This document shows, in pieces, positions 50,330 through 56,870 of a stretch of 57,757 nt of DNA. The notes below the pieces were generated by a model. It was not told where the DNA came from and did no database searches. It was given only the letters and a program-made list of their open reading frames with translations. The position numbers were made by a program, and so were the translations under genes. This DNA comes from Cyanobium sp. C1_MAG_00004 (GTDB taxonomy: Bacteria > Cyanobacteriota > Cyanobacteriia > PCC-6307 > Cyanobiaceae). Positions within the stretch are counted from its first letter, which is position 1; the number at the start of each line of letters is the position of its first letter. The stretch covers positions 1 to 57,757 of the forward strand of contig JAIXOF010000116.1 of NCBI GenBank assembly GCA_027486935.1, written 5' to 3'.

Positions 50330-50359
50330 TTGCTCCTACCCGCATTATGCGTGTATGGT
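50330..50359 (+). promoter_or_regulatory. Persulfide operon promoter with palindromic operator
   Basis: A -35-like TTGCTC (50330-50335) and -10-like TATGGT (50354-50359) are 18 bp apart. Almost filling the spacer is a 17-bp inverted repeat, 50338-50354, with core CGCAT-T-ATGCG (perfect arms) and outer matches giving 7 of 8 bases per arm. Repressors of the ArsR type commonly bind such spacer palindromes. The ATG of the first gene is 25 bp downstream. Confidence 0.6.
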
Positions 50360-50383
50360 CATATCAGTTCGCTTCTGGTCGTC

Positions 50384-51502
50384 ATGGTCCCTGCGGCATC
50401 AGCGTTGCTTGCGGCCGCCGCCGGTGGTTCGGCCCTGTTGTTCCGGCAGCTGTTTGACGCGGAGACCGGAACGTTCACCTACCTGCTGGTGGATGTGCCG
50501 ACCCATCAGGGGGTGCTGATCGATCCGGTGTTCGAACAGCACAGCCGCGATCTGTCCTTGATCCAGGAGCTCGGGGTTGCTCTGATCAGCAGCCTGGACA
50601 CCCACGCCCATGCCGACCATGTGACCGGCAGCTGGCTGATGCATCAGGCCACCGGTTGCGGCATCGGCCTAGCGGCCGTCGCCCGGGCCGAGAACGTGAC
50701 CCTGCCCCTGCAACACGGCGACAAGGTCACGTTCGGCACCCGGCATCTGGGCGTGCGAGCCACACCAGGTCACACCGATGGCTGCCTGAGCTATGTGCTC
50801 GATGACCAGAGCATGGCCTTCACCGGTGACGCGCTGCTGGTGCGGGGCTGTGGGCGCTGCGATTTTCAGCAGGGCAACGCTGGAACGCTGTTTCGCTCGA
50901 TCAGCGAACAGATCCTGTCGCTGCCTGAGCGGTGCCTGTTGTATCCCGGGCACGATTACACCGGCCGGATGGTGACTTCGGTCGCCGAAGAACGGCTGTA
51001 CAACGCACGCCTGGGGGGGCAGGCCAGAGAACGGGACTTTGTGGGCTTCCTGGAGAACATGAAGTTGCCCCATCCCCACCGGATCGCCCAGGCGCTGCCG
51101 GCCAACCTGCGCTCTGGGCGTCCCAGGGACGAAGCCGCCATGGCCCCGGCCTGGGCACCGATCCAGCGCAGCTATGCCGGCCTGCCGGAACTGGCGCCGG
51201 CCTGGGTGGCCGAACACCGCGACGAGCTGACCTTGCTGGATGTGCGATCCCGCGAGGAATTCAACGGTCCCGACGGACGGGTGGCGGGCAGCCTGCTGAT
51301 TCCGCTGCCTGAACTGGAACAGCGGCTGCAAGAGATCCCAGCTGAACGGCCCGTGGTGGTGCTCTGCCACGCAGGCAGCCGCTCGGCTCTGGCCACCCAG
51401 CAACTGATGAAGGGCGGCGTTGCCCAGGTCGCCAACCTCCGGGGCGGTCTCAGTCGCTGGAGTGACGAGGGCTTCCCGATGGAGGGCGAAGGTCCCCGCT
51501 GA
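50384..51502 (+). CDS. Persulfide dioxygenase-rhodanese fusion
   Basis: This 372-aa protein has an ETHE1/SDO-type metallo-beta-lactamase domain (residues ~18-260) and a C-terminal rhodanese domain. MBL residues include THAHADH (73-79), TPGHTDG, FTGDALL and YPGHDY, consistent with a mononuclear iron persulfide dioxygenase that turns glutathione persulfide into sulfite. The rhodanese loop CHAGSRS has catalytic Cys328. Fused enzymes of this kind (PRF type) also pass sulfane sulfur from thiosulfate or GSSH. The ATG at 50384 lacks a strong ribosome site. It opens the operon under the ArsR promoter. Confidence 0.92.
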   Translation: MVPAASALLAAAAGGSALLFRQLFDAETGTFTYLLVDVPTHQGVLIDPVFEQHSRDLSLIQELGVALISSLDTHAHADHVTGSWLMHQATGCGIGLAAVARAENVTLPLQHGDKVTFGTRHLGVRATPGHTDGCLSYVLDDQSMAFTGDALLVRGCGRCDFQQGNAGTLFRSISEQILSLPERCLLYPGHDYTGRMVTSVAEERLYNARLGGQARERDFVGFLENMKLPHPHRIAQALPANLRSGRPRDEAAMAPAWAPIQRSYAGLPELAPAWVAEHRDELTLLDVRSREEFNGPDGRVAGSLLIPLPELEQRLQEIPAERPVVVLCHAGSRSALATQQLMKGGVAQVANLRGGLSRWSDEGFPMEGEGPR

Positions 51503-51568: not shown

Positions 51569-52105
51569 ATGACCAAAACCACCGCCCTGCGCCTCAGCCC
51601 CCATGAACTCGACGAGCAACGCCGGGGAGGTCGCATCACGATCATCGATGTGCGCGAGCCGATGGAATACGTCGGCGGTCACATCCCTGGCAGTCGCAAC
51701 ATCCCCCTGAACCACCTGGCCAAAGCACCCATGCCCGATGGCCCCCTGGTGCTGGTCTGCCAGAGCGGCGCCCGCAGCGAACGGGGCATCACCAGCCTGA
51801 TGGGCCGCGGGGTCTCCACCACCGGCGGCGGCCTTGCCGACCTCGAAGGCGGCCTGATCGCCTGGCAGGCGGCCCAGTTGCCGCTTGAGCGTCGCAAGGG
51901 TGCTCCCTTGCCCCTGATGCGTCAGGTGCAGATCGTGGCCGGCACCCTGGTGTTATCGGGCGTCCTCCTGAGCCAGTTGGTGGCGCCGGGCTGGATCTGG
52001 CTGAGCGGTTTCGTGGGCGCGGGCCTGATGTTCGCCGGCATCAGTGGGTTCTGCGGCATGGCCAGGCTGCTGGCGGCGATGCCCTGGAACCGGGTGACGG
52101 TGTGA
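51569..52105 (+). CDS. Membrane-anchored rhodanese with DUF2892
   Basis: This 178-aa protein has an N-terminal rhodanese domain with catalytic Cys64 in VCQSGARSE and IDVREPMEY, then a DUF2892-type two-helix membrane region (about residues 120-165). It would place sulfane sulfur carriers at the membrane, next to the TSUP exporter gene whose start overlaps its stop by 1 bp. It follows the fusion gene by 66 bp with no terminator between. Confidence 0.9.
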   Translation: MTKTTALRLSPHELDEQRRGGRITIIDVREPMEYVGGHIPGSRNIPLNHLAKAPMPDGPLVLVCQSGARSERGITSLMGRGVSTTGGGLADLEGGLIAWQAAQLPLERRKGAPLPLMRQVQIVAGTLVLSGVLLSQLVAPGWIWLSGFVGAGLMFAGISGFCGMARLLAAMPWNRVTV

Positions 52106-52971
52106 TGGTTTCCCCGATCTTGCTGCTGCTGGTAGCCGGTGGCGGGCTGATCGGCTTTCTGTTGGCGGTCCTGGGGGCCGGGGGCTCGATTCTGCTGCTG
52201 CCGCTGCTGGTGACCGGTGCCGGCCTGCCCACCCGCACCGCTGTACCGCTGTCGCTGATCATCGTGATGGTGCTGGCCATCGGCAACGCGGGCCCCTACC
52301 TGCGACGACGGCAGGTCGCGCCTGGACCTGCACTGATTCTGGGCATCCCTGCTCTGGCAGGCAGCTGGATCGGCGGCAGCCTGGTCAAAGCCGGCCTGGT
52401 ACCCGAGGTGGCCCAGCTGGCCATCTTCGCGGCAGCGGCCCTGGTCGCTTCGTGGCTGATGCTGCGCCGGGCCCGCGCTGGCGCCGACACGGCCCTGCCA
52501 TTGCAGGCTGTTCTGCGGTCTCCCGCCTCGCCCTTGCCCCTGGCCATGCAAGGCGTTCTGGTGGGTCTGCTGACCGGCATCGCCGGCGTGGGTGGTGGCT
52601 TTGCCATCGTGCCGGCCCTGGTGCTGCTGGCGGGGCTGCCGATGCAATTGGCCAGCGGCACCAGCCTGCTGCTGATCGCCCTCAACAGCCTGGTGGCGCT
52701 GCTGGCGCTGGGGCACTGGCCTGCGGACCAGCTGTCCCTGGTGCTGCCGCTGCTGATCGGCGGGGTGGCCGGTGCCGTGGTCGGTCAACGGCTCGCCCCC
52801 CACCTCAAGGACCGTCAATTGCGCCTTGGCTTTGCCGCCCTGCTGATCGGTTCAGCCCTGCTGACCGCAGGAGAGGCCTGGCGGCGCCAGAACGGCAACG
52901 TCCAGACGGCCACCTTCCACACCCCCACGACCCCCTCCAAACCACGGTCATCCCATGGGCAAGTCCTCTGA
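52105..52971 (+). CDS. TSUP (TauE/SafE) family sulfur-anion exporter
   Basis: This 288-aa membrane protein has about eight transmembrane helices and both TSUP signature repeats: GAGGSILLLPLLV near residue 25 and GVGGGFAIVPALVLL near residue 160. The family exports sulfite, sulfoacetate or thiosulfate-type anions. With the persulfide dioxygenase upstream, sulfite or thiosulfate export is the most likely role. The ATG at 52105 overlaps the rhodanese stop. The in-frame GTG at 52102 is an alternative. The last 17 bp overlap the DUF302 gene. Confidence 0.88.
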   Translation: MVSPILLLLVAGGGLIGFLLAVLGAGGSILLLPLLVTGAGLPTRTAVPLSLIIVMVLAIGNAGPYLRRRQVAPGPALILGIPALAGSWIGGSLVKAGLVPEVAQLAIFAAAALVASWLMLRRARAGADTALPLQAVLRSPASPLPLAMQGVLVGLLTGIAGVGGGFAIVPALVLLAGLPMQLASGTSLLLIALNSLVALLALGHWPADQLSLVLPLLIGGVAGAVVGQRLAPHLKDRQLRLGFAALLIGSALLTAGEAWRRQNGNVQTATFHTPTTPSKPRSSHGQVL

Positions 52972-55597: not shown

Positions 55598-56188
55598 TCA
55601 GGCCTGTCGCAGCCCGTCGAGCCGGCCACTGGCGTGCCAGTGGATCAGCGCCTCGTAACCGCCGATGAACTCGCCATCAATGGTGATCTGTGGCACGGAC
55701 TGGCCCGCCGCAGGTTCGACCCGTTCAAACGGGATGGCGAGGCTGTCCAACAGGCGCAGGGCCCGGCGCGAAAAGGGGCATTGATCCGACGCCGCCACCA
55801 TCACCCGGGCCTGCAGAGGTTCGTCCTGCAGGGCATCGCCGGCATGGCGGGGGTCATCGACTGACTCGAGACAACCGATCAGCAGGTCAACCCCTTTGAG
55901 CACCAGGGTTCCTGGCTCCAGGTGGCCGCCCCAGACCTGACAGGCTGAATCGGAACAACTCAAATGGAGATGGACACCCTCAGCGGTGAGCGTGCCCTGC
56001 AGCGTGATGATCTCGAGCTCACCGCGCACCACGGTGGGCTCGGGCTGACCAGGACAGAGAAAGGCGGCCTGGGACAGGTTGCCAACAACGCCCAAGACGA
56101 AACCCTGGCCCCCATGGTGCTGGGCCAGTCGTTGCAAGCAGTCCAGCAGGTCACTGCCAGCGCTCAGGTGGTAGGGCAAGGCACGCAT
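55598..56188 (-). CDS. PPC (DUF296)-glutaredoxin fusion protein
   Basis: This 196-aa protein joins a PPC/DUF296 domain (residues ~1-110; LEIITLQGTLTAEG and a VWGGHL motif) to a glutaredoxin domain (about 128-196). The glutaredoxin active site is Cys137-Pro-Phe-Ser140, a monothiol-type CPxS, followed by SVPQITIDGEFIGGYEAL, the glutathione-binding and cis-Pro loop. Plant PPC domains are DNA-binding parts of AHL proteins. The bacterial ones are less understood. The fusion suggests a GSH/Fe-S-responsive regulator or oxidoreductase. The ATG at 56188 is chosen. It lies 25 bp from the upstream His-rich gene. Confidence 0.85.
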   Translation of the reverse strand: MRALPYHLSAGSDLLDCLQRLAQHHGGQGFVLGVVGNLSQAAFLCPGQPEPTVVRGELEIITLQGTLTAEGVHLHLSCSDSACQVWGGHLEPGTLVLKGVDLLIGCLESVDDPRHAGDALQDEPLQARVMVAASDQCPFSRRALRLLDSLAIPFERVEPAAGQSVPQITIDGEFIGGYEALIHWHASGRLDGLRQA

Positions 56189-56213: not shown

Positions 56214-56798
56214 TCAGCGACTGGCTTCTGAGTGGAGCAGCAGCAACCGCTCCACATCGTCGAGGGCGCTCTCGGCGACATCGTGGGCCAGCTGGAACTG
56301 GCCGTTGGCGTCGTCGAGCATGGCCTGGGCGACCCGATCCAACAGGGCCTCGCGCTGTTCGCGCAGCATCGCCAGCAGCTCCCGTTCGATCAGCTGCTGC
56401 AGGGCCTGACGCCGCAGGCTGGTGGACAGCCCAGCCTCTGAGAGGGTGCCTTGAACCAGTTCGTCGACGAACAGGCGCTGCACCTCGCGGCTGCGCAGAA
56501 AGCTCTCGACCGCATTGAGGGCGCCATCGACCAGGGTGCGCTCGGCCTCGGCCGACTCGCCGCCGAGCCTGAACTCCCAGTCCAGATGGCGGCGCTGCCA
56601 ACCCTGGGCCTGCATCTGCGGGGCCACGTTCTGGCAGAAGCTGTCGACCGAGATCTCGTAGACGCGCTCAGCGAGGCGTTCGCACCAACTGACGCCGTGG
56701 CTGCGCAGGCTCGACTGCAGGGCATCCCTGCTGACGGCATGTCCGCCGTGGTGGCTGTGGCAGACCCCGTCGGGACATTCAATGGCGGTCAGGGACAT
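56214..56798 (-). CDS. Conserved helical protein with His-rich N-terminus
   Basis: This 194-aa protein starts with an N-terminal Cys/His cluster (ECPDGVCHSHHGGH, residues ~7-20) that could bind Zn or another metal. The rest is predicted helical with the segments LHLDWEFRLGGES-like and many Leu/Glu/Arg heptads. The sequence has the feel of a conserved picocyanobacterial hypothetical. I do not recognise a domain. It lies between the ZIP transporter upstream (72 bp) and the PPC-glutaredoxin fusion downstream. Confidence 0.65.
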   Translation of the reverse strand: MSLTAIECPDGVCHSHHGGHAVSRDALQSSLRSHGVSWCERLAERVYEISVDSFCQNVAPQMQAQGWQRRHLDWEFRLGGESAEAERTLVDGALNAVESFLRSREVQRLFVDELVQGTLSEAGLSTSLRRQALQQLIERELLAMLREQREALLDRVAQAMLDDANGQFQLAHDVAESALDDVERLLLLHSEASR

Positions 56799-56870
56799 GG
56801 AGCCTGGGGAGTTCAACGACCCCCGGCCTAGCAACGGTGTGGACCAACCACCAACAGGAGACTGCCGGGC

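Follow-up and report, generated by a model that had tools for sequence, protein, structure and literature searches.

The joining of a PCC (DUF296) domain to a glutaredoxin (Grx) in bacterial proteins has been on record since Alves et al. (2009; PMC2679010) included a DUF296-GRX architecture in their list. The available text of that paper places the Grx in the CPYC class and offers a DNA-binding role as a guess, without a test. Cysteine co-conservation, a taxon-wide survey and a form lacking helix alpha2 do not appear in that text, nor does it mention Prochlorococcus or Synechococcus. No study of the function of the PCC-Grx fusion emerged from the literature searches, and a review of redox signalling in cyanobacteria published in 2026 uses neither 'PPC' nor 'PCC domain'. 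More is known about the separate halves. The PPC domain of the stand-alone protein PH0802 (2dt4) is reported as a trimer, as cited in PMC4958981. In the plant AHL proteins, DNA binding requires the AT-hook, while the PPC domain makes protein-protein contacts (PMC8056045). In PTD012 (C11orf54), whose fold is related to that of acetolactate decarboxylase (ALDC), zinc is held by three conserved histidines (PMC12435205).

The window analyzed here, a 57,757-nucleotide stretch of DNA from Cyanobium sp. C1_MAG_00004, encodes such a fusion in a single unbroken frame of 196 amino acids plus stop, starting from an ATG at position 56188 of the minus strand (Table 1). Both domains score above their Pfam cut-offs, PCC/DUF296 (PF03479) with 65.6 bits against 25 and Glutaredoxin (PF00462) with 30.2 bits against 22.9 (E 5.4e-7), which rules out a chance domain match. 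Full-length homologues are kept in many single-contig genomes, which rules out a fusion created by sequencing or assembly. Thus, the PCC and glutaredoxin-like domains are joined in one gene, as the first-pass annotation had it, and no sequencing error has merged two genes. The protein has the two domains that Alves et al. (2009) listed as DUF296-GRX, in the same order. The annotation had also called both domains complete. This does not hold for the Grx, whose Pfam match is limited to residues 129-157, or profile positions 1-29 of 60. The best NCBIfam Grx model, GRX_bact, falls short of its cut-off of 90 bits with a score of 34.1.

Table 1. Coordinates of the PCC-Grx gene, its domains and key residues in the window, and of genes flanking it in marine relatives.
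Feature	Position	Strand	Evidence
PCC-glutaredoxin fusion gene	55598..56188	-	Open frame; Pfam PCC and Glutaredoxin; full-length homologues in 57/57 same-family genomes
PCC/DUF296 domain, residues 6-105	55874..56173	-	Pfam E 6.6e-18; genome search; 2p6y Z 20.3, 2h6l Z 13.7
Alpha2-less glutaredoxin domain, residues about 127-196	55601..55810	-	Pfam; model secondary structure; Grx fold matches Z about 10; length comparison
Cys45 codon, fusion-specific	56054..56056	-	C in 84/84 fusions, 1/45 stand-alone PCCs
Cys83 codon, fusion-specific	55940..55942	-	C in 84/84 fusions, 1/45 stand-alone PCCs
H73-x-H75 ... H89, proposed metal-binding triad of PCC	55922..55972	-	84/84 fusions, 45/45 stand-alone
CysA (Cys137) codon, catalytic, CPFS motif	55778..55780	-	Invariant 84/84
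RHH_5 gene flanking PCC-Grx in marine relatives	locus L071, 5680-5970	-	
DUF6737 gene flanking PCC-Grx in marine relatives	locus L071, 6585-6803	+	

Within the phylum sampled, the fusion is confined to one family. Of the 386 genomes in this sample, all 57 from the same family gave a match over the whole profile, and no full-length fusion was found in the 329 others; among the matches listed for the latter, coverage either ends at the PCC half or spans the Grx half only. A broader search of the family gave a match in 278 of 300 genomes at E <= 0.001, a count in which some of the weaker matches are probably ordinary Grx or PCC proteins only, and among the matches listed all were full length or nearly so. 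Because Prochlorococcus, Synechococcus and Cyanobium are the named relatives that carry it, the family corresponds to the picocyanobacteria, and the fusion is a long-kept trait of these tiny ocean and lake cyanobacteria. The architecture is therefore common in this family and was listed in 2009, but no characterization of it was found. What is new here is the set of fusion-specific cysteines, which provide a testable clue, and the alpha2-less monothiol Grx as a variant form. No phage-borne copies of the fusion were found in viral contigs, and PADLOC returned no match to a defence system. Other PCC arrangements were seen during the survey. In a 648-residue frame from a genome of the same class (locus L106, 40-1983, plus strand; also L102), a C-terminal PCC domain follows a sugar nucleotidyltransferase with hexapeptide repeats, making another PCC fusion with a different partner. 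In another cyanobacterial family, a glutathione S-transferase gene adjoins a stand-alone PCC gene (locus L108, 1426-2696, minus strand).

The PCC half possesses the HxH...GGH motif and Glu59, and shares these, the His triad and its fold with the stand-alone proteins 2p6y (VCA0587), 2hx0, 2dt4 (PH0802) and 2h6l (AF0104). In a structure search with this half, solved PCC proteins were matched at Z 13.7-20.3, including 2h6l, which is titled a metal-containing protein. ALDC structures were matched at Z 9.2-9.7. Based on the invariant triad, these fold matches and the Zn(His)3 site of PTD012, a metal is likely to be bound at H73, H75 and H89, by analogy with these relatives.

Despite this likeness, the stand-alone PCC proteins have no Grx domain and differ at two positions. 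Among 45 of them, position 45 is mostly Phe or Leu (also Tyr) and position 83 is mostly Gly; the solved relatives 2p6y and 2hx0 have Leu or Tyr at the former and Gly at the latter. The Cys exceptions are one distant, poorly alignable protein and one truncated, stop-containing fragment. In contrast, the 84 fusions compared, which range from Prochlorococcus to Cyanobium, have three invariant cysteines and only three: C45 and C83 in the PCC domain and C137 in the Grx. The resolving position of the Grx (CysB) is optional, being Cys in 25 of the 84, Ser in 57 and Thr in two. In the structural model, C45 lies in the turn after strand beta2 (29-44) and C83 in the turn after beta4 (72-79). If the predicted strands form a simple antiparallel meander, the two turns would sit at the same sheet edge. 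A broken PCC fragment with an internal stop (locus L173, G056:C1:211300-212500) retains Cys83 and may be what is left of an additional, decayed fusion gene.

The Grx half resembles bacterial glutaredoxin 3 and Synechocystis GrxA (1fov, 3qmx) in its thioredoxin-type fold, CPx[CS] site (CPFS, 137-140), cis-Pro (P166) and GG turn (176-177). Unlike these proteins, it has lost helix alpha2, its site is monothiol and it is covalently carried by a PCC domain. The spacing from CysA to the cis-Pro is 30 residues, compared with 42 in 53 of the 84 family members, so that relative to most relatives 12 residues are missing between strand beta2 and the cis-Pro. In the AlphaFold2 model (75-sequence alignment, single chain, mean pLDDT 92.5), strand 154-157 is followed directly by strand 167-170 with no helix between, whereas in a long CPWC relative helix 158-168 fills this place. 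Moreover, a basic residue within the six positions before the residue that precedes the cis-Pro is found in 49 of the 53 long forms but in only two of the 31 short ones, and the window protein lacks it. Because helix alpha2 is missing and the glutathione scaffold is incomplete, the domain is better described as a reduced, glutaredoxin-like domain than as a canonical class I Grx. The full glutathione/cis-Pro loop described in the first-pass annotation does not hold up. Nor is the domain a class II (CGFS) Grx: its site is CPFS, and the five-residue loop of that class is absent, as nothing is inserted ahead of CysA when the domain is compared with E. coli Grx3. The genome encodes a separate CGFS Grx. 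The activator lysine three residues before CysA is absent from all 84 fusions. This was dropped as a sign of inactivity because the ordinary dithiol Grx of the same genome also has Trp there.

When the loop and active-site columns are left out of a maximum-likelihood tree, two changes suffice to explain the short form, which is essentially a single clade apart from one long member whose placement is uncertain. At least five changes are needed for the resolving cysteine. In close pairs where dN/dS could be computed, it ranges from 0 to 0.27 for both domains, the short forms included, indicating that the stripped Grx is maintained rather than decaying.

The first-pass annotation had also tied the fusion to nearby glutathione and metal genes. 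On the minus strand of the window, the order is a ZIP transporter gene, a conserved gene for a 206-residue protein (orf206), PCC-Grx and a SpoIIAA-like gene, with a glutathione reductase gene convergent. The glutathione reductase and SpoIIAA-like genes are retained beside PCC-Grx in other members of the genus, but none of the four neighbors accompanies it in the other genera fetched, where the neighbors are different. At the congener locus fetched, the approximately 1.9 kb read upstream of orf206 contained no ZIP gene. Across the family, orf206 is itself conserved but sited elsewhere in the genome. Since the neighborhood is not conserved beyond the genus, the argument from position fails and a functional link through neighbors was rejected. 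Other features of these regions were recorded. The orf206 product (56217-56834, minus strand), encoded between ZIP and PCC-Grx, belongs to no real Pfam family, is present in 93 of 151 family genomes and holds CPDGVCHSHHGGHA, a possible metal-binding motif, at its N-terminus. In marine relatives, the flanking genes of PCC-Grx are an RHH_5 gene, CopG-like and divergent, and a DUF6737 gene, an arrangement conserved in more than 20 loci. Elsewhere in the window, a metallo-beta-lactamase-rhodanese fusion (50330-51502, plus strand) and a TauE/SafE sulfite exporter (52102-52971, plus strand) are probably the sulfur island of the earlier annotation.

Mainly because the two PCC cysteines accompany the fusion, we tentatively propose that a thiol relay between C137 and C45/C83 operates in the PCC-Grx oligomer of picocyanobacteria, a reading that falls somewhat short of probable. 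The model has a low-confidence linker (117-122) and a pTM of 0.59, which suggests that the domains are mobile relative to each other. The reduced monothiol domain with its catalytic C137 would thus be tethered flexibly to a PCC part that oligomerizes around a metal site, as a trimer by analogy. C137 may then exchange a disulfide or glutathione with C45 or C83, in cis or between subunits, and the PCC core would thereby have its state set by the thiol state of the cell. Since the mixed disulfide could be resolved by a PCC cysteine or by GSH, the Grx would not need a resolving cysteine of its own. The output of the core would be the regulation of a protein partner, as a first guess, or a metal-dependent reaction. 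In the sequence comparisons, the invariance of the three cysteines while CysB varies, together with purifying selection on both domains, argues for the relay. Against it, the three cysteines could instead be structural or metal-binding, and the partial loss of the glutathione site in the window's clade could mean that the Grx has no redox chemistry. A more specific version, and a rather speculative one, is a self-contained thiol switch, in which the PCC core gained a cysteine pair and the tethered, progressively stripped Grx serves that pair only.

Other readings have been weighed against the relay. The His triad, C45/C83 and C137 might together bind Zn, Fe or Cu, with the protein buffering or sensing metal. 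The invariance of the triad, the match to 2h6l, the Zn(His)3 sites of the ALDC/PTD012 relatives and the position of the gene after a ZIP transporter gene in this genome are all consistent with metal handling. However, the predicted strands would place C83 in a hairpin turn several residues from H75 and H89, and ZIP was not found beside the gene at the congener locus or in other genera, so that we consider this explanation unlikely. It is still less likely that a [2Fe-2S] cluster is shared by two Grx domains of the oligomer, with C137 and GSH as its ligands and the PCC core as its reporter. A monothiol site (CPxS or CPxT) is present in 59 of the 84 members, and Fe-S binding is known for some class I Grx, but a proline in the active site reportedly may disfavor cluster assembly (PMC11724882). 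In addition, the site is CP[FWY][S/C/T] rather than CGFS, the class II loop is absent, the window's clade has lost the helix alpha2/loop portion of the GSH scaffold, and a cluster would leave the fusion-specific C45 and C83 unexplained. As for the annotation's suggestion of a GSH- or Fe-S-responsive fusion, the evidence supports the joining of the domains and a redox role, while the specific GSH or Fe-S reading is weak.

Similarly improbable is a metal-dependent enzyme of the ALDC/PTD012 fold type that is kept reduced by the Grx domain. Although the HxH...H motif and E59 are invariant and ALDC structures match the PCC model, Z-scores near 9-10 indicate fold rather than function. At about 107 residues, the PCC domain is much smaller than ALDC or PTD012, ALDC is matched in part only, no evidence linked to catalysis was found, and known PCC proteins are described as oligomerization or DNA-associated factors. 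Least probable, and by our estimate very much so, is a DNA-binding redox regulator in which the PCC trimer contacts DNA directly under the control of the Grx domain. Beyond the proposal of 2009 for DUF296-GRX, several solved PCC entries bear the title 'putative DNA-binding protein'. In the AHL proteins, however, binding resides in the AT-hook and not in the PPC domain; the window protein has no AT-hook core and so lacks the AT-hook plus PPC make-up of AHL proteins, and its PCC domain is acidic (pI 5.5). The DNA-binding role raised in the first-pass annotation is accordingly weak, and the PCC half more probably serves as an oligomeric domain with a metal site than as one that binds DNA.

About a quarter of the primary production of the oceans comes from Prochlorococcus and Synechococcus (PMC13421787), and a putative redox fusion that nearly all of them have kept is an obvious object of study. 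The co-conserved cysteines offer a direct test of bacterial PCC-domain function, and the alpha2-less domain shows how little of a glutaredoxin can persist under selection. If true, the thiol switch would represent a new type of redox sensor, one shared by nearly all picocyanobacteria of marine and fresh waters.
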